From Xenorhabdus nematophila ATCC 19061 (GTDB lineage: Bacteria > Pseudomonadota > Gammaproteobacteria > Enterobacterales > Enterobacteriaceae), in the NCBI RefSeq assembly GCF_000252955.1, contig NC_014228.1, positions 3,015,232-3,079,231 of the forward strand: a DNA stretch of 64,000 nt, read 5' to 3'. Position 1 is the stretch's first letter; each line of letters starts with the position of its first letter. The translations under genes and the position numbers were made by a program. Under the pieces are notes generated by a model. It was given only the letters and a program-made list of their open reading frames with translations. It was not told where the DNA came from and did no database searches. Below, piece after piece: positions 30,548 to 41,264 of the stretch.

Positions 30548-32308
30548 ATGAAAATCATCAATGACTTTGATCCCCGAAAACAAGCCATGCACCTGTACTT
30601 TAGCGGGTACCGGGTGGCACGCATTGCGGAAATGCTCAATGAGAACGCGACGACTATCCACAGCTGGAAACGCCGCGACAAATGGGACGATGTGACGCCG
30701 TTTGAGCGGGTTGAGTTGTCGCTGGAAGTGCGGCTGTGCCAGTTGATTGCCAAGGAGCAGAAGGAGGGCAAGGACTTTAAGGAAATTGACCTGCTGTACC
30801 GCCAGCTGGAGCGGCAGGCGCGCATCAACAAATACAGCCACGGCGGCGGCAATGAAGCCGATCTGAATCCGAAGATTGCCAACCGCAACAAGGGCGGGCG
30901 CAAGCCACCAGAAAAAAATGTATTCAGTGAAGAACAGATCGAAAAACTGGACGCCCTCTTTCAGGCGAACATGTTCGGTTACCAGAAAGTATGGTATCAG
31001 TCTGGTCTGCAAAACAGTATCCGTAATATCCTGAAATCCCGCCAGATTGGCGCGACCTACTTTTTCGCCCGCGAAGCGTTGATGGATGCGCTGACGACCG
31101 GCCGCAATCAGGTTTTTCTGTCGGCCAGTAAGGCACAGGCCCATGTCTTTAAAGAGTACATTCTGGATATGGCACGGGAAGTGGATGTCGAACTGCGCGG
31201 CGACCCCATCACTTTAAGCAACGGGGCCACGCTCTATTTTCTCGGCACCAATGCCCGCACCGCGCAAAGCTACCACGGCAATCTCTATCTGGATGAATAT
31301 TTCTGGATCCCGCGCTTTCAGGAGCTGCGCAAAGTCGCGTCCGGCATGGCGATACACAAGAAATGGCGCCAGACCTACTTTTCCACCCCGTCCAGCCTGA
31401 CCCACAGCGCTTACCCGTTCTGGTCAGGCAAACTGATTAACCGGGGGCGGGCGAAGGCTGACAGGATTGAGATTGATATCAGTCATGACGTGTTGGCTGA
31501 GGGGGTGCTGTGCGGTGACGACCAGTGGCGGCAGATAGTGACGCTGGAAGATGCAATACAGGGAGGTTGCGACCTGTTTGATATCGACCGGTTACGGCGA
31601 CAATACAGCCCCGACGAATACCAGAACCTGCTGATGTGTGAGTTTATGGACGATATCGAATCCATATTCTCGTTGCAACTGATGCAGGGCTGCATGGTGG
31701 ACAGCTGGGAAATCTGGCACGATGTCCAGCCCCTGATGTTGCGCCCGTATGGCTACCATCCGGTCTGGATCGGCTATGATCCGGCCAAGGGTGGCGAGAA
31801 CGGCGACAGTGCCGGCTGTGTGGTGATAGCACCGCCACAAGTGCCGGGCGGCAAGTTCCGCATTCTTGAGCGTCACCAGTGGCGCGGGATGGACTTTCGC
31901 GCCCAGTCGGACGCCATCCGGCAACTGACCGAACAGTATAATGTGGAATATATCGGCATTGACTCGACCGGCATCGGGCATGGGGTATACCAGAACGTGA
32001 AAGAGTTTTTTCCGGCGGCACGGGAATTTGTTTATAACCCGTCCGTTAAAAATGCCCTGGTGCTGAAAGCGTGGGACATCATCCACCATCGCCGGCTGGA
32101 ATTTGACGCCGGCCACACCGACATCGCCCAGAGTTTTATGGCTATCCGCCGTGCCACGACCGCCAGCGGCAACCGTCCAACCTATGAAGCCAGCCGCAGT
32201 GAAGAAGCGAGTCATGCCGATCTGGCGTGGGCGACCATGCACGCGCTGTTTAACGAACCGATCACCGGTGACACCCCCCAACACAGAAACATTGTCGAGG
32301 TTTACTAA
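30548..32308 (+). CDS. P: terminase large subunit gpP
   Basis: 586 residues against about 590 in P2 P. An N-terminal HTH (GYRVARIAEMLNENATTIHS) is followed by the packaging ATPase: Walker A-like LKSRQIGAT (about 162-170), ITLSNGATLYFLGTNARTAQ, and Walker B LYLDE (about 246-250). The C-terminal RNase H-like nuclease starts at about residue 400 (WIGYDPAKGGENGDSAGCVV). It cuts cos and packages DNA with gpM. The stop overlaps the Q start (TAATG). Compare it with the truncated paralogue at 34774. Confidence 0.96.
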   Translation: MKIINDFDPRKQAMHLYFSGYRVARIAEMLNENATTIHSWKRRDKWDDVTPFERVELSLEVRLCQLIAKEQKEGKDFKEIDLLYRQLERQARINKYSHGGGNEADLNPKIANRNKGGRKPPEKNVFSEEQIEKLDALFQANMFGYQKVWYQSGLQNSIRNILKSRQIGATYFFAREALMDALTTGRNQVFLSASKAQAHVFKEYILDMAREVDVELRGDPITLSNGATLYFLGTNARTAQSYHGNLYLDEYFWIPRFQELRKVASGMAIHKKWRQTYFSTPSSLTHSAYPFWSGKLINRGRAKADRIEIDISHDVLAEGVLCGDDQWRQIVTLEDAIQGGCDLFDIDRLRRQYSPDEYQNLLMCEFMDDIESIFSLQLMQGCMVDSWEIWHDVQPLMLRPYGYHPVWIGYDPAKGGENGDSAGCVVIAPPQVPGGKFRILERHQWRGMDFRAQSDAIRQLTEQYNVEYIGIDSTGIGHGVYQNVKEFFPAAREFVYNPSVKNALVLKAWDIIHHRRLEFDAGHTDIAQSFMAIRRATTASGNRPTYEASRSEEASHADLAWATMHALFNEPITGDTPQHRNIVEVY

Positions 32309-33336
32309 TGAGCCGCAAAAGCCGCAAACGTCAGCCGGTGCAAGCCACTGCGCCCGCCCAGTCCATGGAAGCCTTTACCTTTGGCGACCCGATCCCGGTG
32401 CTGGACCGGCGCGAGGTGTTTGATTATCTGGAGTGCGTACGGGTTGACAGTTGGTATGAACCCCCTATCAGTTTTAACGGGTTGGCGGTTTCCTTCCGTT
32501 CTGCCCCGCATCACAGCAGCGCGGTGTACGTGAAACGCAATATCCTGACCAGCACCTTTGTTCCCCATCATTTGCTCAGCCGACAAGTGTTTGATTCGTG
32601 GGCGCTGGATTTTATGCTGTTCGGCAATGCCTATCTGGAACTGCGCAAGAACCGCCTCGGCCAGCCTTTGAGCCTGCACCATTGCCCGGCCAAGTTTACC
32701 CGGCGTGGGGAGGACTTGACCACCTACTGGTTTGTGCGCTACGGCTACCAGAGCCAGCCGTACCCGTTTGAAACGGGACAGGTGTTTCACCTGATTGAAC
32801 CCGACATCAATCAGGAACTGTACGGTTTGCCGGAATATCTGGCGGCGCTGCCGTCAGCGTTGCTGAATGAATCGGCGACGCTGTTTCGGCGCAAGTATTA
32901 CCTGAACGGCAGCCATGCCGGGTATATCCTGTATATCAGCGATGCGTCGCAAAATATTTCAGATGTCAACAATATCCGCGAGGCGCTGAAGAATTCGAAA
33001 GGGCCGGGTAATTTCCGCAACCTGTTTTTGTATGCGCCCGGCGGCAAGAAAGACGGCATTCAGACTATCCCGCTGTCTGAGGCAGCGGCCAAGGATGAGT
33101 TTCTGAATATCAAGAACGCCAGCCGGGATGACATTCTGGCCGCGCACCGCGTCCCGCCGCAGATGATGGGGATTATCCCGCAGAACACCGGCGGCTTTGG
33201 GGATGTGGAGAAAGCGGCCAAGGTGTTTGTGCGCAATGAACTGCTGCCGTTGCAAAGCAAGATGAAACAACTGAATGACTGGCTCGGGGAAGAGGTGATC
33301 CGGTTTGAGCGGTATTCACTGGATGACGACAAATAG
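32308..33336 (+). CDS. Q: portal protein gpQ
   Basis: 342 residues against about 344 in P2 Q. Core motifs are WYEPPISFNGLAVSFRSAPH, DFMLFGNAYLELRKNRLGQP and VPPQMMGIIPQNTGGFGDVE. It forms the dodecameric head portal. It is translationally coupled to P and followed by a strong terminator. Confidence 0.96.
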   Translation: MSRKSRKRQPVQATAPAQSMEAFTFGDPIPVLDRREVFDYLECVRVDSWYEPPISFNGLAVSFRSAPHHSSAVYVKRNILTSTFVPHHLLSRQVFDSWALDFMLFGNAYLELRKNRLGQPLSLHHCPAKFTRRGEDLTTYWFVRYGYQSQPYPFETGQVFHLIEPDINQELYGLPEYLAALPSALLNESATLFRRKYYLNGSHAGYILYISDASQNISDVNNIREALKNSKGPGNFRNLFLYAPGGKKDGIQTIPLSEAAAKDEFLNIKNASRDDILAAHRVPPQMMGIIPQNTGGFGDVEKAAKVFVRNELLPLQSKMKQLNDWLGEEVIRFERYSLDDDK

Positions 33337-33354: not shown

Positions 33355-33379
33355 GGCCGCCGGTATGGCGGTCTTTTTT
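33355..33379 (+). terminator. terminator after Q
   Basis: The stem GGCCGCC / GGCGGTC (33355-33361 with 33367-33373, one G-U pair) runs into seven T. It ends the P-Q transcript 19 bp after the stop. Confidence 0.9.
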
Positions 33380-33848: not shown

Positions 33849-33863
33849 GTGGATGAAAGAAAA

Positions 33864-34367
33864 ATGACATTAGACGCAACAACGCTGCAAATCATCAGTA
33901 ATGCCATTGTCTTTCTGGGTGTTCTGGTGGCCATCGGTACAATCATCTATAACGTTCGCACCGCGAAGAAAACCCAGACCGCCCATTTTTTGTTTGAGAG
34001 TCGCCAAGACACGCAGTACATAGAGTCACTGCATGTACTTAAGCAGGTGCATCGGTCAGGAAAATCCTTCCGTGCCTATGTTTTCCCTCCTGAAGGAAAA
34101 TCAATCTCCGAAGAGGAAATGGTGGAACGTCGTAAATTCCAGTACATCCTTAATTTTTACGAAAGAGTGGCGGTCAGCATCCGGGAAGGGATCTATAACG
34201 AAAAGATGATAAAGCGAACCTCATTTACCACCGTGGTTGAAACTTACGATATTGCTGAACCCTTAATCAAAGCCATCAGGGAACACATCAACTCTGAAAC
34301 CACTTACCAAGAATTCGAATGGCTGGTTAAGCGCTGGAAAGCCAGTCCGCTAAAGAAAAATAAGTAG
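33864..34367 (+). CDS. DUF4760-like membrane-anchored protein (prophage cargo)
   Basis: 167 residues from the ATG at 33864. One N-terminal membrane segment (IISNAIVFLGVLVAIGTIIY) is followed by a cytoplasmic helical domain with ESRQDTQYIESLHVLKQVHR, ILNFYERVAVSIREGIYNE and YQEFEWLVKRWKASP. This layout is typical of the DUF4760 family; function unknown. It lies outside Q, across cos, where P2 carries the exclusion genes tin and old, so a superinfection role is a reasonable guess and no more. A GTG five codons upstream is an alternative start. Confidence 0.7.
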   Translation: MTLDATTLQIISNAIVFLGVLVAIGTIIYNVRTAKKTQTAHFLFESRQDTQYIESLHVLKQVHRSGKSFRAYVFPPEGKSISEEEMVERRKFQYILNFYERVAVSIREGIYNEKMIKRTSFTTVVETYDIAEPLIKAIREHINSETTYQEFEWLVKRWKASPLKKNK

Positions 34368-34385: not shown

Positions 34386-34402
34386 GCCGCTCAACAGGCG
34401 GC
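34386..34402 (-). terminator. terminator of the leftward early operon
   Basis: The minus strand reads GCCGC CTGTTGA GCGGC followed by seven T. It lies 22 bp beyond the RHH-Zn gene stop. A perfect palindrome GTGACATGTCAC is at 34408-34419, between stop and terminator. Confidence 0.9.
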
Positions 34403-34423: not shown

Positions 34424-34756
34424 TTACAATTTCAACTCATGCCAGCCTGACGTATTCCAACACGCAGCCTCGCCAGAGAAACAGCATTCCGTCACCGGAA
34501 GCGTATTACCACATTTTCCGCATTGCTGCGCTGATAACGCCTGCATTTTCTGTCGTAACGCCGCATCATCTTTGCGAATAAGCAACGTCAGGTATTCAAC
34601 CACCTCATACGGATCGCGACCCGGCCGCCTCAGTGCGCAATTGCGCTTTAGCATCGCCAGTTCCTGATTATCGAGCAGCACCTCTATTTTGGTCACGCCA
34701 GAATCTTTCTGGCGTTGACGCTGGGCGGCTTTACGTTCTGCGGGAGATTTAGCCAT
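34424..34756 (-). CDS. RHH-like DNA-binding protein with a C-terminal zinc-ribbon-like tail
   Basis: 110 residues from the ATG at 34756, which follows GGGAGATAAACCC. A basic N-terminus (AKSPAERKAAQRQRQKDSG) precedes TKIEVLLDNQELAMLKRNCA, which could be the strand-helix of a ribbon-helix-helix fold. The C-terminal CGKCGN...ECCFSGEAAC could bind zinc. The family is not known to me beyond P2-like early genes. It is the last gene of the early operon, 17 bp after the terminase paralogue. Confidence 0.6.
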   Translation of the reverse strand: MAKSPAERKAAQRQRQKDSGVTKIEVLLDNQELAMLKRNCALRRPGRDPYEVVEYLTLLIRKDDAALRQKMQALSAQQCGKCGNTLPVTECCFSGEAACWNTSGWHELKL

Positions 34757-34773
34757 TGGGTTTATCTCCCTGA

Positions 34774-35469
34774 TCACCAACGTGGATGAGGCAAACGACA
34801 CAAATACAGCTCTTCAAACGCCTGCGGTGTTAAACCCCAGGCAATTTTTTCTTTATCCAATCGATTTTCAGTATCATCAAACAAGGTGACCGTATCGAAA
34901 AAAGCGCGTTCACCTCTGATACGATTCAGGATAAAGAACCGCTTATAAACCTCCTCGCCGTTATCCCCTGAACCTCTGGAGGAGTAAAACGTTCTCTTCC
35001 ATTGCTTATGCATTGATAGATTCAAAGCTAATTGCACCAACTGAATAGGGTTATCCGACCAAGCCCACTCTGACACATAAACATCGCCACAAAGGGCTGC
35101 AACATGGCTGTTTTCATGCACAAAGCGGATTTCAGCACCATTACTGAGCGTCACTAACCGAATATCTTCAGCATTTTCGGTTAACGTTGCTTGCTGTTTC
35201 GGGAAATACTGCGCAACGTAGTGAACAAAGTTCGGCAATAACTCCTTATTGGACATAAAAAACTTATTTCGCCCCGTCCGGCAGGCATCGCTTAACGCTT
35301 CCAGCACGAAATAATAATCAGCACCCGCCTGTCTGCATTTATGCAAAAAGCGATTACGGTGATGTTGATTAGCTTTCCAGCGTTTCTGCCAGACAAATAA
35401 GTCTAAAACAAATTTCCGGTGAATGTCGTAAACGATGTTGGTATCTAACTTTAAGGTGATGTTATTCAT
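34774..35469 (-). CDS. truncated, ATPase-degenerate terminase large-subunit paralogue
   Basis: 231 residues. From residue 35 to the end it lines up with the ATPase domain of gpP in this same prophage: FLHKCRQAGADYYFVLEALS with ILKSRQIGATYFFAREALMD, TGRNKFF with TGRNQVF, VTLSNGAEIRF with ITLSNGATLYF, and HKQWKRTFYSS with HKKWRQTYFST. Key residues differ: the last Walker A position is Asp51 instead of Thr, and Walker B reads YVSEW instead of YLDEY. The N-terminal HTH and C-terminal nuclease of gpP are absent. It is expressed from the early operon, far from the packaging genes, and a start with AGAGGAT is clear. It may interfere with terminase assembly or act as a regulator. Confidence 0.75.
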   Translation of the reverse strand: MNNITLKLDTNIVYDIHRKFVLDLFVWQKRWKANQHHRNRFLHKCRQAGADYYFVLEALSDACRTGRNKFFMSNKELLPNFVHYVAQYFPKQQATLTENAEDIRLVTLSNGAEIRFVHENSHVAALCGDVYVSEWAWSDNPIQLVQLALNLSMHKQWKRTFYSSRGSGDNGEEVYKRFFILNRIRGERAFFDTVTLFDDTENRLDKEKIAWGLTPQAFEELYLCRLPHPRW

Positions 35470-35474
35470 TTTAT

Positions 35475-35675
35475 TTATCCTCTCAGAATAAGAATGCCTG
35501 CCGCTAAGTCACATTTAATGATTTGTCGCAACACCTTATCCCGACGGGACTTGATTGTTTTAAAAGCACGTTGATAAGGTTTAGTTCGGGTGTTTTTCCA
35601 CCATTTTCTACGGCGGGCAAAGTACGTATCTAAATCGCTCTTCAATAATTCATTGGCTGTGGTGAGTTTTTTCAT
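35475..35675 (-). CDS. small basic protein of unknown function
   Basis: 66 residues from the ATG at 35675, which overlaps the Dcm stop (ATGA). It is rich in Lys/Arg/Trp (ARRRKWWKNTRTKPYQRAFK) and so probably binds nucleic acid. It is five bases from the terminase paralogue's ribosome-binding region, so the two are probably co-translated. Not recognised. Confidence 0.55.
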   Translation of the reverse strand: MKKLTTANELLKSDLDTYFARRRKWWKNTRTKPYQRAFKTIKSRRDKVLRQIIKCDLAAGILILRG

Positions 35676-36841
35676 TGTTGCCTCATCTGCATTAAAATCC
35701 GTTTCCCAATCCATGCCATCACCGGCACGGCCATTGAATTACCGATTGCCCGGTAACGATGGCCATCGGGACAATCTGCCGCGGATTTACCGTTCCACGG
35801 AATTTGGGTGTGATTATCAGGAAAACCCTGTAACCGCTCGCACTCCACGGGGGTGAATCGCCGCACAGCGTCATGAGTAGCTATCAGGTCAGCAGCGCTT
35901 TTATCATCCCGTGACCTGAGTGTTGATGAGATATCATCTGTTTTGTATTCCCCGAATGAAAGCAGGCGATAGGTGGATACCAACCCGCTGCCGCGCTGAG
36001 AAAATATTTCCTGATTGCTCATCCCGATCCCACCTGTGTTATGGCTCTGGTTTAAGGTTGGGTGTGGGTTTAACTCTGAATCCCAGTGACTACCGATAAC
36101 AGCACGGTTTCCAGCATGGGCGGCAACGGTTTGCCCCGCCGTTCCGCGCGTCTCAGGATGCCGGTGCACGCTGTCCGGCTCAAAAAGTACCGTGGCGGGA
36201 CAAAAGTTTTTTCGAGCACTTGCGACAACAAACACACGGCGGCGTCGTTGGGCCACGCCGAAATATTGAGCGTCGAGCACCCGCCAGGCGACGGCTCTTT
36301 GTGGTCCAGACACATAACCTGCGTTCGTCCACCGTTTCCCTGACGGCTGCAACGGCACATCTTCGCCGGCAAGGCCTGCAAGAAAACAGCCGAAGGCGTT
36401 ATCTCGGCTGGATAAGACGCCGGGGACGTTTTCCCAGACGATAATCGCGGGTTGTTTTCCGTTTGCTGTTCTGACTGAATCAATGACATTGGCCAACTCC
36501 ACGAATGATAAGGTTAGTTTTCCCCGCTCATCGCCCAGCCCATTGCGCAAACCCGCAATGCTGAACGCCTGACAGGGTGTCCCGCCGACCAGAATATCCG
36601 GCGCATCGGCCTGATTTTCAGCAATCAGGGCGGAGATTTGGGTCATATCCCCCAGATTGAGGACATACGGCCAGTGATAGCGCAGTACCTCACTGGGAAA
36701 TTTTTCGATTTCACTGAACCATGATGGAAACAAGCCGAGCGGTTCCCATGCCACACTGGCCGCCTCAATGCCGGAACAAACCGAGCCGAATGTACACGTA
36801 ATGTTATTAACGATTTCGGCATCTAATTTTAAGGTCAGCAT
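35672..36841 (-). CDS. DNA (cytosine-5) methyltransferase
   Basis: 389 residues. C5-methylase motifs in order: I FGSVCSGIEAASVAWEPLGL (18-37), IV GGTPCQAFS with the catalytic Cys90, VI WENV (136-139), VIII AQRRRRVFVV (197-206), and X AIGNSMAVPV near the end. The specificity region between VIII and X is long and not assignable to a target sequence. No cognate nuclease is nearby, so it is an orphan methylase that probably protects phage DNA. Its first 14 residues (LTLKLDAEIVNNI) resemble the start of the terminase paralogue downstream. Confidence 0.93.
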   Translation of the reverse strand: MLTLKLDAEIVNNITCTFGSVCSGIEAASVAWEPLGLFPSWFSEIEKFPSEVLRYHWPYVLNLGDMTQISALIAENQADAPDILVGGTPCQAFSIAGLRNGLGDERGKLTLSFVELANVIDSVRTANGKQPAIIVWENVPGVLSSRDNAFGCFLAGLAGEDVPLQPSGKRWTNAGYVSGPQRAVAWRVLDAQYFGVAQRRRRVFVVASARKNFCPATVLFEPDSVHRHPETRGTAGQTVAAHAGNRAVIGSHWDSELNPHPTLNQSHNTGGIGMSNQEIFSQRGSGLVSTYRLLSFGEYKTDDISSTLRSRDDKSAADLIATHDAVRRFTPVECERLQGFPDNHTQIPWNGKSAADCPDGHRYRAIGNSMAVPVMAWIGKRILMQMRQQ

Positions 36842-37095
36842 CCGGCTTCCCTCGCTGCAAAATTTTCCGCAATTTCCTCAATTCGCTCACTCAGTTGCTG
36901 CAAGGTTTTTATATCATTGCCATCAACTCCCAGTCTGATCACACAGCGGACTAATTCCCGCAAATTTGTGTAATATCTAAATGGTGTCAAATATTCGCGG
37001 CCTGCATTTTTACCTCTCAGCGATACTGTTTTTTTATTCAGCGTGTATGCTCTGCTATCTGAAGTAATGACATATTGACCTAAATCGATTCTCAT
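36835..37095 (-). CDS. DUF5405-like phage protein
   Basis: 86 residues, starting MRIDLGQYVITSDSRAYTLN and containing YYTNLRELVRCVIRLGV. This matches my memory of DUF5405, a small protein of P2-like early operons between A and other genes. Function unknown. It overlaps gpA by 4 bp and Dcm by 7 bp. Confidence 0.65.
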   Translation of the reverse strand: MRIDLGQYVITSDSRAYTLNKKTVSLRGKNAGREYLTPFRYYTNLRELVRCVIRLGVDGNDIKTLQQLSERIEEIAENFAAREAGC

Positions 37096-39206
37096 GATTT
37101 CCTCATTTCACCCAGATTCTTAATCCGCTGCCGCAGCACATCGCGGTGCGCCTCTTTTTGCCGTTCCGTTTCCACCGGAATAAAACTGCCGTCCGTCCAT
37201 AACCGGAAAGATTGTTCACTGAGGTTAATTTTTCCCCCGATAATTAATGACTGCGCCATCAGCCGGCTAAAATCCATCCCGATTGACCGGGCGTAATCGA
37301 CCACTTTTTCAACTAACTGATCCTTCTCGCTGATCGTACGCTGACCCCCCGTACAGTTATTGACAGAACTCCAAGGGGCGGCGTTGCCGCCAGATAAAGG
37401 CAAAACCCCACTGCTGACCGTGCCGTTATCGGCCGTTAACTTCGGCACTATCTGCCAGCGGTGTTCACGGGTTGAAATAAAGGGATCATTGATAAGGTAA
37501 GGGGAGGTGATCCCCTGAATGCGTTGCGTGTCCTCACCGTAAGGGCTGCCACCTTCCACACGCTCATAAGAAAGACGCGCGGTCAGATCACGGCGGGAAA
37601 CCAGCGGGCCACCCTGCGCCTCGGTGTATTTAGCCCAGTTGCCGGTATCGGCCGCGTCAATGACGTCATCCAGCTTTTCAATATTCAGGCGGGTATCCCC
37701 CAGACGGCGCAGTTCCCGCCAGACCGAAACCGGTGCCCCGCCGATTTGCTGAAACTGCCGAATACGCCAGCGGCTTGCCCAGGCAGAAACCGCTTTCGCC
37801 ATGTCCTTGATGGATTCGCCTGTTTCAGCGTCTTTCTCATCATCCAGCGCGTAGCCGTCGATATTCTTTGAGATATATTTGGCGATATACCCCGTGGCGC
37901 TGCCTTTTTCCTTGTCAATGGGTTCAACATGAAAGCGGGCTTTGCGGGCGGCTTCGCTGTTCAGTTCAGCGGCGTCTTCCAGCATGGCATGATGGCGAAT
38001 AATGGCGCGCATCTTCTCGACATGCTCAGGGGGCATAAACAGCAGCATGTGCCAGTGGGGCGTCCCGTCATGGTGAGGCTCAACCACCCGGAAGCCAAAG
38101 ACGCTAATTCCCTCACGGGCATACGCCGCGCGGATACGTGCCCAGACACCACACAGGTACTTTTGGGTATCACGGGGGTTAGAACCGTCCCAGTTTTCCA
38201 CGAAACCCCCTTTGCTGTGCACCGCATGGTATTTTGACGGGGCGGTCAGGGTATAAAACTCACCCACAAAGCCGCGTTCGTCAGCCAAATCCTCAAAACC
38301 CCGCATCCGTACCATCAATTCGCAACGGCGCACGGCCGGATTGGCCACACTGCCCAGTACCCTCTCACTTAATGGCACCCGTTCACCGAGTTCATTCTCT
38401 AAATCAAACGCCTTGAGAAATTCCCAGCTCTTGCGCTTCTGCTCTTTCCATTCACGCAGGGTATGGCGGGAAACATACGGTGAGGCGGATTTTTGTACCT
38501 GTCCGACCGCAATCGCCATATGCTCAGCACGAATATCCCGCATTCTTTTCAGGCGGCCATACCACCATTTATCAGACATCAGGCGAAGCAGGCCGGCGCA
38601 TAACTGATCAACCGTGACTTTTCCACCCCGCGCCAGTTGTTGCCAGTAAGGGGGCGTTGTCCCGGTCTGATGGGCCAGTTTTGCCATTCTTTGGTAGACA
38701 TTCAGCAGACGCAGCCTGGCTTCGTCCTGATCATCCGGGGGCTGATTGACATACTGTGCGGAGACGTCTTCATAACTGTCGGTCATAAACTGGGAAACTG
38801 CCCACGCAAGCTGCTTAATCTCTTTGCGCTCCAGCGTCACCAGACGCTCTAATTGCTCGATAAAAGGAAAGGGGATTGCACCGGCGGCCTGATGCCTGAA
38901 TTGATAACGTGCAAAGACTGTGTTCAGTCGTGGTAATACATTCTCACCAATGGTCTTACGTAAAAATGCATTAGCACGACGGCGGCCATGGCGGCCGGAC
39001 TCGGTATAGATTTTTTTGTAACGGTTAGAAAAATACGTCGCCAGAAAATCAGGCATGACCCCGATAAACTGGCGGCGCCATTCATGATCGGCGGGGTTGG
39101 TATCCCATAGCAGACGTTCAGCCATCGTTGCATCCGCGGGCAAACCCGGCTGAAAGTCTTCACGCTGGCGACGCACAGATAGCATTGCGTCGCTGTTGTG
39201 TTCCAT
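37092..39206 (-). CDS. A: replication initiator endonuclease gpA
   Basis: 704 residues from the ATG at 39206. A GTG at 39248 is possible but lies inside the upstream gap. P2 A (about 761) nicks the origin inside its own gene and starts rolling-circle replication. The HUH motif is EPHHDGTPHWHMLLF (about residues 376-390 of this start). The two active tyrosines are in TGYIAKYISKNIDGYALDD (Tyr440 and Tyr444). The middle region keeps ITLTAPSKYH-like FYTLTAPSKYH. The origin itself was not located. Confidence 0.95.
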   Translation of the reverse strand: MEHNSDAMLSVRRQREDFQPGLPADATMAERLLWDTNPADHEWRRQFIGVMPDFLATYFSNRYKKIYTESGRHGRRRANAFLRKTIGENVLPRLNTVFARYQFRHQAAGAIPFPFIEQLERLVTLERKEIKQLAWAVSQFMTDSYEDVSAQYVNQPPDDQDEARLRLLNVYQRMAKLAHQTGTTPPYWQQLARGGKVTVDQLCAGLLRLMSDKWWYGRLKRMRDIRAEHMAIAVGQVQKSASPYVSRHTLREWKEQKRKSWEFLKAFDLENELGERVPLSERVLGSVANPAVRRCELMVRMRGFEDLADERGFVGEFYTLTAPSKYHAVHSKGGFVENWDGSNPRDTQKYLCGVWARIRAAYAREGISVFGFRVVEPHHDGTPHWHMLLFMPPEHVEKMRAIIRHHAMLEDAAELNSEAARKARFHVEPIDKEKGSATGYIAKYISKNIDGYALDDEKDAETGESIKDMAKAVSAWASRWRIRQFQQIGGAPVSVWRELRRLGDTRLNIEKLDDVIDAADTGNWAKYTEAQGGPLVSRRDLTARLSYERVEGGSPYGEDTQRIQGITSPYLINDPFISTREHRWQIVPKLTADNGTVSSGVLPLSGGNAAPWSSVNNCTGGQRTISEKDQLVEKVVDYARSIGMDFSRLMAQSLIIGGKINLSEQSFRLWTDGSFIPVETERQKEAHRDVLRQRIKNLGEMRKS

Positions 39207-39278
39207 TAACTCACTCACTCGCAAACCCCGGCATACACCGAGCTGCACGCCTGATGGGCATTTTCTTCGGCCAATAAG

Positions 39279-40220
39279 TCAAACTGACGCCCCCCCCCTG
39301 GAAGTCAGCGCCCAGTCGCGATAGGTTTCAATCCCGTGGGATTCCAATGTCACGCACTCGATACGACGTTCCCGTTTCACCGGGTCTTGATGGGATGGAA
39401 AGAAAGTGGAATTACCCCGACGTGAACAGGCCGCCACCATCTGTTTCCAACGGGCAACGCGGGCAATTTCATCCGGGAAGCGAGAAAATATTTCGGCCAG
39501 TTCAGATTTGCGGGCATGAATGCAGGGCATACAACCGACGCGCGAACAACCTTGCTGATACAGGGGGTTAGGCTTGATACCGTGCTTTTTCGCCAGTACG
39601 AAAACCTGCTCATGTGTCCATGACAAAATAGGGCGGTAAACGGACAATCCGGCGGTATCATCAATATCCGATTCCCATGCCGGCAATTTCGCCCGCTCCG
39701 GTGATTCCTGCGCCCTGATACCCTGCCATGAGATCACTTCATCAAATTCAGTGAGCAACGGCTGGATAACCTGCTCAGCAATGGGCTTATGCTTAAGCTC
39801 GAAAGTACAGAACCGGGCTTTTGTTGACGGGAAACGGCCCTTTAACATACACAGGTCGAGAAAGGGGTTATCCGTAGGAAATAAGACCTTGAGTGCAGCA
39901 ATAATACGCTTTTCTGCCTGTGCTTCGGTCATGCCACATTCGGCAACCAGACTGATCGGCCAACGGGTTTTGATAAACTCACGCTTGTTTTTAATCTGGC
40001 GGGTAAAGTCCGCTTTTACCCGCTGAATTTTCCCCAGCCGGTTTTCCAGATAATCCAGATAGTCCATGGTTTGCGGGTGTTCATGCCCGGTATCGGCAAA
40101 GACGGCAATATGAGGCACATTGGCTTCGCGAGCCAGTAACCACTGGGCGAGGCTGTCTTTACCCCCTGAAACAGAAATCACGTTAATGGTGTTTTCGGCA
40201 TAGCATCGGGTATCAATCAT
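39279..40220 (-). CDS. PP-loop / PAPS-reductase-family protein
   Basis: 313 residues. A PP-loop ATP-pyrophosphatase motif SGGKDSLAQ (18-26) and the adjacent VFADTGHEHPQTMDYL place it with phosphoadenosine phosphosulfate reductase-like enzymes. A CSRVGCMPCIHARK block supplies three cysteines that may bind a metal or Fe-S cluster. This group occurs in P2-like phages but the substrate is unknown. Assimilatory sulfate reduction seems unlikely from context; nucleic-acid modification is possible. It lies between Dam and gpA, overlapping Dam by 4 bp. Confidence 0.82.
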   Translation of the reverse strand: MIDTRCYAENTINVISVSGGKDSLAQWLLAREANVPHIAVFADTGHEHPQTMDYLDYLENRLGKIQRVKADFTRQIKNKREFIKTRWPISLVAECGMTEAQAEKRIIAALKVLFPTDNPFLDLCMLKGRFPSTKARFCTFELKHKPIAEQVIQPLLTEFDEVISWQGIRAQESPERAKLPAWESDIDDTAGLSVYRPILSWTHEQVFVLAKKHGIKPNPLYQQGCSRVGCMPCIHARKSELAEIFSRFPDEIARVARWKQMVAACSRRGNSTFFPSHQDPVKRERRIECVTLESHGIETYRDWALTSRGGASV

Positions 40221-41041
40221 GAACGTTCTCCCAACACCGCAATAATTTCTTTCGCAGACTGACGGTTGCCATTGGCGGCAATGGTACGAGGGGCATCGAT
40301 TTCATGGATAGTGAAACCCAGATCGGCATACAACTCTTTGGCTTCAATTGAGTTGGAAACGGTGACGGGTATATCGCCTTCATCATGCAGGGTGCGTAAA
40401 AACACGGCTAACAACTCATGATCAGCAGGGGTAAAATTTACCTGATGATATTGGGTGAAGGCTTTGCCTTTGGTGAGATACGGCGGATCGCAATAAACTA
40501 CATCGCCATGTTCAGCGCGTATTAAAGTGTCCTGCCATTCCTGACAGGCAATCTCAGCGTGTTGGGCTTTTTCAGCGAAGGCGCGAATTTCTTTTTCAGG
40601 AAAATAAACGTTTTTATATTTTCCGTAGGGGGTATTAAATTCACCACTTAAATTATATCGGCATAAGCCATTATAACAGTGCCGATTTAAATATAAAAAA
40701 TAAGCGGCTTTTGATGCCTGACTCAGTTCGAGTACTTTTTCGTTAAAATCATCGCGCTTCATATTATATATTTTGCGCGAATTATCACCGTCAAAACCCA
40801 GCTTTAACCAGTTAATGTACCAGTCAATATCAACACCAAAAGACAAAATTTGTGCATATAAATTAATTAAATCAGCGTTAGCATCCGCCACCAAATACGC
40901 CGGGTAATCCGTATTCATCATCACGGCACAGGAACCCGCGAACGGCTCAACCAGCCGCTGACCGGCAGGCAGATGCGGCAGTAACTTATCCATAATGCGG
41001 ACTTTTGAACCCGCCCATTTGAGGATAGTTTTATTGGCCAT
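40217..41041 (-). CDS. dam: Dam-type DNA adenine methyltransferase
   Basis: 274 residues from MANKTILKWAGSK, whose ATG is one base after the upstream stop (TGAGATG). Motifs: LKWAGSK near the N-terminus, the SAM site VEPFAGSCAVMMNTDYPAYL, and the catalytic DPPY in VVYCDPPYLTKG (185-188). This is the D12 class, probably methylating GATC. Orphan Dam genes are common in P2-like phages. Confidence 0.93.
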   Translation of the reverse strand: MANKTILKWAGSKVRIMDKLLPHLPAGQRLVEPFAGSCAVMMNTDYPAYLVADANADLINLYAQILSFGVDIDWYINWLKLGFDGDNSRKIYNMKRDDFNEKVLELSQASKAAYFLYLNRHCYNGLCRYNLSGEFNTPYGKYKNVYFPEKEIRAFAEKAQHAEIACQEWQDTLIRAEHGDVVYCDPPYLTKGKAFTQYHQVNFTPADHELLAVFLRTLHDEGDIPVTVSNSIEAKELYADLGFTIHEIDAPRTIAANGNRQSAKEIIAVLGERS

Positions 41042-41042
41042 C

Positions 41043-41264
41043 TCACACACTCCGATAATGTTTCAGTTTCAGTTCAAAAATTTCCTGGCAGGGCGCGCAG
41101 TGGGTCACGCCGGTGACAATCCTCCGGCGTGCTTCGGGGATTGCATGTCCGCAAACCTCACATTCAAACGCTGAGACACCGACAGGGCGGTTAACATGAG
41201 CAGCTATTCGCTGTTCCAGCAATTGCTCAGCGTGCTGAAGGGCTAAATCGAGCGCCTTAGACAT
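41043..41264 (-). CDS. TraR/DksA-type zinc finger protein
   Basis: 73 residues from the ATG at 41264. An N-terminal helix (KALDLALQHAEQLLEQRIAA) is followed by CEVCGHAIPEARRRIVTGVT and CAPCQEIFE, the four-cysteine DksA/TraR finger. It corresponds to P2 orf82-type genes and may act on RNA polymerase during lytic growth. It overlaps the previous gene by 8 bp. Confidence 0.9.
   Translation of the reverse strand: MSKALDLALQHAEQLLEQRIAAHVNRPVGVSAFECEVCGHAIPEARRRIVTGVTHCAPCQEIFELKLKHYRSV

Follow-up and report, generated by a model that had tools for sequence, protein, structure and literature searches.

In a P2-like prophage within the 64,000-nucleotide stretch of the Xenorhabdus nematophila ATCC 19061 chromosome that was analysed here (the window), a small gene between the replication gene A and the portal gene Q encodes a short relative of gpP, the terminase ATPase subunit. 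We name this gene and its product SHORT. It is a branch of an older lineage of ATPase-only gpP paralogues, to which gene W of coliphage 186 belongs, and more precisely a probably relocated, apparently inactive branch of that lineage, which as a family is old and barely studied. SHORT may block or tune DNA packaging in related phages. Interference with packaging motors is our tentative first choice for its function, closely followed by service as a packaging helper whose gene has moved. The positions on which the argument rests are the following.

34774 to 35469, minus strand: SHORT, ATPase-only terminase paralogue (apparently inactive branch of the gene-W lineage), from profiles, tree and fold model
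35338 to 35340, minus strand: K44, first lysine of Walker A
35317 to 35319, minus strand: D51, replacing Walker A Thr170 of gpP in alignments
35071 to 35073, minus strand: S133, replacing Walker B Asp249 of gpP in alignments
35068 to 35070, minus strand: E134, kept at the Walker B/catalytic Glu position in the alignment

A preliminary description had presented this 231-residue open reading frame (ORF) as a catalytically dead copy of the phage's own terminase ATPase, devoid of the helix-turn-helix (HTH) and nuclease parts. The frame itself was confirmed; it starts with ATG, and a Shine–Dalgarno-like stretch, GAGAGGATAAATAAAATG, precedes the start codon. SHORT matches PF03237 (Terminase_6N) above the curated cut-off (6.9e-9, 36.1 bits against 22), and among PHROG families it matches phrog_3746, terminase large subunit, with 3.2e-42, so that the significant terminase-ATPase profile match on which the earlier view depended does exist. 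Although phrog_3746 is the best PHROG family of both SHORT and 186 W, it does not discriminate W from gpP, because gpP matches it as well. HTH (Terminase_5, PF06056) and nuclease (Terminase_6C, PF17289) domains were matched by Pfam in gpP and not in SHORT, in agreement with their described loss, and structure modeling also supports the described terminase ATPase fold, the predicted fold of SHORT being that of a terminase large subunit (TerL) ATPase. BLASTP aligns SHORT to the gpP of its own prophage with 32.5% identity over residues 20–167 (E 1.9e-20). The alignment had been said to run from residue 35 to the end, and multiple alignments do span nearly the whole ATPase domain, but the BLASTP match ends at residue 167. 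Compared with a complete P2 gpP-type terminase, SHORT thus lacks the HTH, the nuclease, the Walker A Thr and the Walker B Asp.

In the BLASTP alignment to its own gpP, K44, D51, S133, E134 and C224 of SHORT correspond to K163, T170, D249, E250 and C364. The gpP of this prophage has intact KSRQIGAT and YLDEY motifs, and the Walker A motif of SHORT reads KCRQAGAD; alignment bears out both reported losses, that of the Walker A Thr to D51 and that of the Walker B Asp to S133. Among 41 Xenorhabdus SHORT rows, some of them near-identical, D51 was found in all 36 that cover the site and S133 in 40 of 41, with one Ala. The lysine K44 is likewise present in 36/36 covering SHORT rows (5/41 uncovered), in 42/42 late W rows (1/43 uncovered) and in 34/34 gpP; the gpP Walker A motif thus has its lysine at the front, as in lambda, and SHORT keeps this residue. 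The distinct gpP sequences, when pooled, have the Walker A Thr in 107/107 cases and the Walker B Asp in all 104 that could be scored (3 unscored). The picture is different for 113 distinct proteins of 180–330 residues, 67 of which have an Asp in Walker A, and in all 67 the Asp of Walker B is replaced, by Ser in 60, Gly in six and Ala in one. The others comprise 36 with Thr and Asp (some being gpP fragments), one with Ser and Asp, and nine that are unscorable at one site, and a change of only one member of the pair was not seen in any protein scored at both sites. In ASCE (additional strand, catalytic E) ATPases, the side chains of the Walker A Thr and the Walker B Asp meet at the metal of the active P-loop site. 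As the changes are paired and both side chains are located at the metal, we regard them as a linked exchange; random decay of the active site was rejected, as it would not produce a conserved and coupled pair of changes. SHORT is therefore best read, from its motifs, as a pseudo-ATPase that would be unable to hydrolyse ATP normally. The observation of a dead site is thus stronger than first claimed, as the two changes go together and are conserved across a broad lineage. We also considered whether SHORT has lost a trans-arginine finger located ahead of Walker B, comparable to R139 of P74-26; 'NARTAQ' in gpP seemed promising in this respect, and the idea was abandoned because P2/186-type gpP have 'SAATAQ' at that place.

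The nearest short relatives outside Xenorhabdus are ATPase-only genes between P and Q of P2-like phages. One of them is gene W of coliphage 186 (AAC34147), annotated as 'W protein, similar to Orf12', and PSP3 gp2, EtG gp02 and SW9 gp02 have the same place. In a tree of 46 domains, 20 gpP together with one odd copy (locus L103) were on one side of a branch supported at 100/100. SHORT formed a single clade (100/100) on the W side, joining the W proteins of loci L115 and L120 at 98/93, with its exact place inside W being less sure because its stem is long (2.19). Without L103, all 20 gpP were on one side at 100/100, and SHORT grouped with the L115/L120 W proteins at 98/94. By descent, SHORT thus belongs to the gene-W lineage, being ATPase-only and falling with W where the tree separates W from gpP, and we classify it as a relocated branch and not as gene W itself because it is not located between P and Q.

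Portals in the genus fall, by our reading of the match rows, into three groups of identity to the portal of the window (type A 81–100%, type B ~54%, type C 33–34%), and with type A gpP, its own gpP included, SHORT could be grouped by constraint only with a drop of 36 in log-likelihood and a p of 0.019 in the approximately unbiased (AU) test. The best BLASTP bit scores of SHORT are those to late W proteins (114, 109), followed by type B gpP (80–84) and its own gpP (77). That SHORT arose as a recent, degenerate duplicate of its own gpP, as had originally been described, was consequently rejected on the tree and the AU test and is very improbable, even though the two proteins are 32% identical and a precedent exists in genome G269, in which an ATPase-only copy is found beside its own gpP and clearly derives from it. 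This copy, the above-mentioned L103 (contig C6, 1769–2533, minus strand), groups with the neighbouring gpP, has the motifs AHQVGMS and YVDEY, and represents a second independent ATPase-only copy between P and Q, i.e. a parallel origin of a W-like gene. A constraint to a single dead-site origin with 186-type W on the gpP side was not rejected by the AU test (p 0.363).

Dead-site W proteins also occur outside Xenorhabdus. Among the best 80 loci of a viral-contig scan, to which all following viral counts refer and whose search patterns favoured the dead form, so that the counts are no frequency estimate, 25 had a short copy, and all 25 copies were directly before Q. A gpP-type ORF was found upstream on the same strand in 24 of these 25 (shortened in L134), and L137 had no room for one; the motif KxRQxGAD was present in 24 of 25, L141 giving no motif match. 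In Escherichia coli, 21 of 5426 complete genomes match the W gene of locus L017 over at least 80% of its length. Escherichia phage 500465-1 has a shortened dead-site W of 176 residues (L003, 6001–6531; NC_049342 gp13) that is annotated as a second terminase large subunit, and its portal is likewise annotated as two pieces. The early-strand form was found in Xenorhabdus only: of 34 protein matches, 31 have an organism name, and each of these is Xenorhabdus. In a family sample of 198 genomes, relatives of at least 75% identity were restricted to two genomes (G000 and G160), both Xenorhabdus, and all others had at most 40%.

Within the genus, eight SHORT copies gave ratios of nonsynonymous to synonymous substitution rates (dN/dS) of 0.18–0.29 in all 28 pairs, indicating purifying selection. 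The divergence of SHORT is independent of that of gpP, as SHORT is 80% identical where gpP is 46% identical, and 73% identical where gpP is 94% identical. By our reading of the match rows, 18 of the 30 genus genomes together have 24 distinct SHORT loci, and five further genomes match via gpP only. Seven copies are full-length and open, two are cut by contig ends (both in G201), and 15 are truncated, interrupted or remnants; this corresponds to 15 of 22 uncut copies, a figure to be read with possible assembly errors in mind and with contig ends unchecked for the remnant G012:C263. Two prophages of G206 have in-frame internal deletions with both ends of SHORT kept (L108, 3488–3952, 154 residues; L107, 6434–6694, 86 residues). 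Full-length SHORT occurs with portal types A and B, and with type C there is one remnant only (G206). A type C prophage was present in none of six genomes with full-length SHORT and in 12 of 24 others (p=0.057), which is a post hoc comparison that ignores kinship, with p ranging from 0.024 to 0.19 depending on how G201 (contig-cut copies) and G220 (a 209-residue copy) are scored; we consider this suggestive at most and do not count it as support. At another place, the window's own genome has a second, partial type B portal gene (G000:C2:2321906-2322625), which may be left over from a further P2-like prophage.

SHORT belongs to a run of genes that overlap or abut one another and is the fourth of them after A (A, a DUF5405-like gene, a cytosine methylase gene, a DUF7301 gene, SHORT and a phrog_536 gene). 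The features of this neighbourhood are as follows.

37092 to 39248, minus strand: gpA, replication gene A, edge of the cargo slot (PF05840 Phage_GPA, 6.6e-111)
36835 to 37095, minus strand: DUF5405-like gene overlapping A and the methylase gene (Pfam 18.4 bits, under the cut-off of 21.6; phrog_154, 8.9e-18)
35672 to 36841, minus strand: C5-cytosine DNA methylase, upstream of SHORT (Pfam, PADLOC)
35475 to 35714, minus strand: DUF7301 gene, upstream of SHORT (Pfam)
34424 to 34801, minus strand: phrog_536 gene (transcriptional regulator, PHROG), downstream, overlapping the SHORT stop and last before the terminator-like site
34386 to 34402, minus strand: terminator-like stem with T run that ends the early-strand gene chain (consensus match only)
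33849 to 34367, plus strand: DUF4760 gene (Pfam), opposite in strand to SHORT and in the same A–Q slot
32308 to 33336, plus strand: gpQ, portal, its start overlapping the P stop (PF04860 Phage_portal, 1.5e-19)
30548 to 32308, plus strand: gpP, full terminase ATPase subunit (Pfam), motifs KSRQIGAT and YLDEY intact

The overlap of P with Q at 32308 leaves no W between them, and SHORT lies beyond Q on the opposite strand. Its assignment to an early operon in the preliminary description agrees with its position, namely the strand of A and the gene chain up to the terminator-like site; such sites numbered 10 in the 4 kb against 4.9 expected, and another follows Q at 33355–33373. The A–Q slot and the strand of SHORT are kept in all six genome-contig loci that hold both A and Q (L005, L007–L011), the remaining five loci of that scan being without A, Q or both, and L015 having matched via gpP. 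Located between gpA and gpQ and having variable neighbours, SHORT qualifies as cargo of this slot, which PMC9122126 describes as an anti-phage hotspot of Escherichia coli P2-like phages, with old and tin in P2. We read this as a probable relocation of SHORT from the late P–W–Q place to an early-strand cargo slot in Xenorhabdus. Sibling prophages have HicA/HicB (L010, 8737–9494), a YafO-type toxin (L106, 2275–2709) or, elsewhere, other ORFs in the same slot. The DUF4760 gene is the single gene in the interval from Q to the early-strand genes; it has the late-strand orientation, is flanked by terminator-like sites, and is a possible cargo or defence gene. Within the early region, 39279–41050 (minus strand) encodes a phosphoadenosine phosphosulfate (PAPS)-reductase-like protein (SspD-like in PADLOC, 1.2e-24) and a D12-class adenine methyltransferase (PF02086).

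How could an inactive motor subunit act from such a slot? Because SHORT is predicted to fold like a motor subunit, it could stand in for a subunit, be it next to gpP within the ring or at the portal. It would not hydrolyse ATP normally and has no nuclease, and if produced before the late proteins, SHORT would introduce dead subunits into packaging motors, with the outcome that competing P2-like phages package less (exclusion) or that packaging is held back in the phage's own cycle. Being cargo, SHORT would be exchanged between prophages with different gpP and often lost. Such interference fits the fold, the dead site, the early strand, the hotspot slot and the independence of gpP, and a decoy or exclusion role as initially proposed gains some support from the gpA–gpQ place and from the independence of the cognate gpP. 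Several points weigh against it. A packaging-helper role is equally natural for the same type of protein when it sits between P and Q, and the position of the dead-site relatives elsewhere, directly before Q in every viral short copy, would be unusual for exclusion genes. The letter name of 186 W presumably marks an amber-defined, i.e. needed, gene. A poison acting on gpP should harm its own carrier phage, an immunity partner for SHORT was not identified, and in G222 a type A and a type B prophage occur together, each with a full-length SHORT. PADLOC gave no match for SHORT, which speaks neither for nor against a defence role.

The gene-W role itself, with only the place being changed, is a serious alternative, if somewhat less probable; SHORT would then serve its own phage as a subunit without catalysis, as a chaperone of assembly or as a factor for docking to the portal. 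This draws on the P–W–Q arrangement, whose genes overlap start to stop in the phages 186, PSP3, EtG and SW9, in Yersinia phage 56.17 and in 24 viral contigs, on the W-side position of SHORT in the tree, on purifying selection and on the letter name of 186 W. However, P2 has no W (P and Q overlap at 1221), yet the gpP proteins of P2 and 186 share 88% identity, and therefore gpP of the P2/186 type can work without W. SHORT also does not follow the neighbouring gpP, is encoded on the early strand, is cut down beside open P and Q in G206 (twice, in frame) and in G220, and is absent from the 5.2 kb that follow Q in G209, where P and Q are open. The frequent breakage and the in-frame deletions would also suit a once-useful W gene that now hitchhikes in the early operon without a present function, but dN/dS, the conservation of D51 and S133 and the open full-length frames in seven prophages make such a relic improbable. 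Slightly less so, and still unlikely, is a decoy for host sensors, in which an early, nucleotide-incompetent terminase mimic would occupy Avs-type STAND (signal transduction ATPases with numerous domains) proteins such that the later gpP escapes them. Position and domain content would fit (PMC12931631), but a recognised domain could equally trigger the sensor. A search of the 30 genus genomes for nSTAND3, other nSTAND families being unsearched, gave one strong match (G202, 145.6 bits), other scores above the cut-off being at most 31.2 (27.5 in the genome of the window), and all 14 control genomes matched as well, so genomic support is lacking.

Returning to interference with the packaging motor, its relation to known systems can be outlined. 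Like SHORT, 186 W (as well as PSP3 gp2, EtG gp02 and SW9 gp02) is an ATPase-only gpP paralogue of ~230–250 residues that stops at a similar position ahead of the nuclease, but it keeps KSRQIGAT and YLDEF (YLDDF in PSP3) and is a late-operon gene flanked by P and Q, whereas SHORT has D51/S133 and an early-strand gene in the gpA–gpQ interval. The dead-site W proteins (L115–L118, L120, L004; viral L124–L173) share with SHORT the Walker A Asp and a Walker B Ser, Gly or Ala, except for L141 (Walker B Pro, Walker A unscorable), but they are located between P and Q and not in an early cargo place, and the six compared have 29–33% BLASTP identity to SHORT. With gpP, SHORT shares a homologous ATPase domain at ~32% identity, and gpP alone has the HTH, the nuclease, the Thr and the Asp. 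The usual description of a phage packaging motor is a ring of active subunits that are all alike, and a conserved silent subunit type beside the packaging genes of many P2-like phages raises the question of what W does in 186, a classic laboratory phage. It is conceivable, if rather doubtful at present, that P2-like phages carry widespread, conserved pseudo-ATPase subunits, derived from an ancient ATPase-only gpP paralogue and marked by the linked Thr/Asp to Asp/Ser exchange, that enter motors silently, as regulators in P–W–Q and as an early weapon against rival P2-like phages in the Xenorhabdus defence slot. Among the papers listed, titles and abstract openings revealed no literature on the function of 186 W or on a terminase pseudo-ATPase, subscription papers being mostly outside reach, and a term search of PMC11126057 found neither 'gene W' nor 'W gene'. 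With P2 old and tin and the other hotspot systems (PMC9122126), SHORT has the slot in common, and no relation is claimed. A precedent for a prophage protein that stops the virion assembly of competitors is the tail assembly blocker Tab of JBD26 (PMC10884400), which differs from SHORT in having 83 residues, recognising the tape measure protein, and possessing its own promoter and an anti-Tab partner; the same paper mentions that phage-inducible chromosomal islands (PICIs) block the small terminase. If the relocated form indeed blocks the packaging of rivals, the interference would come from an inactive relative of the motor's own subunit, and would as such be distinct from both the tail blocking by Tab and the small-terminase blocking by PICIs.
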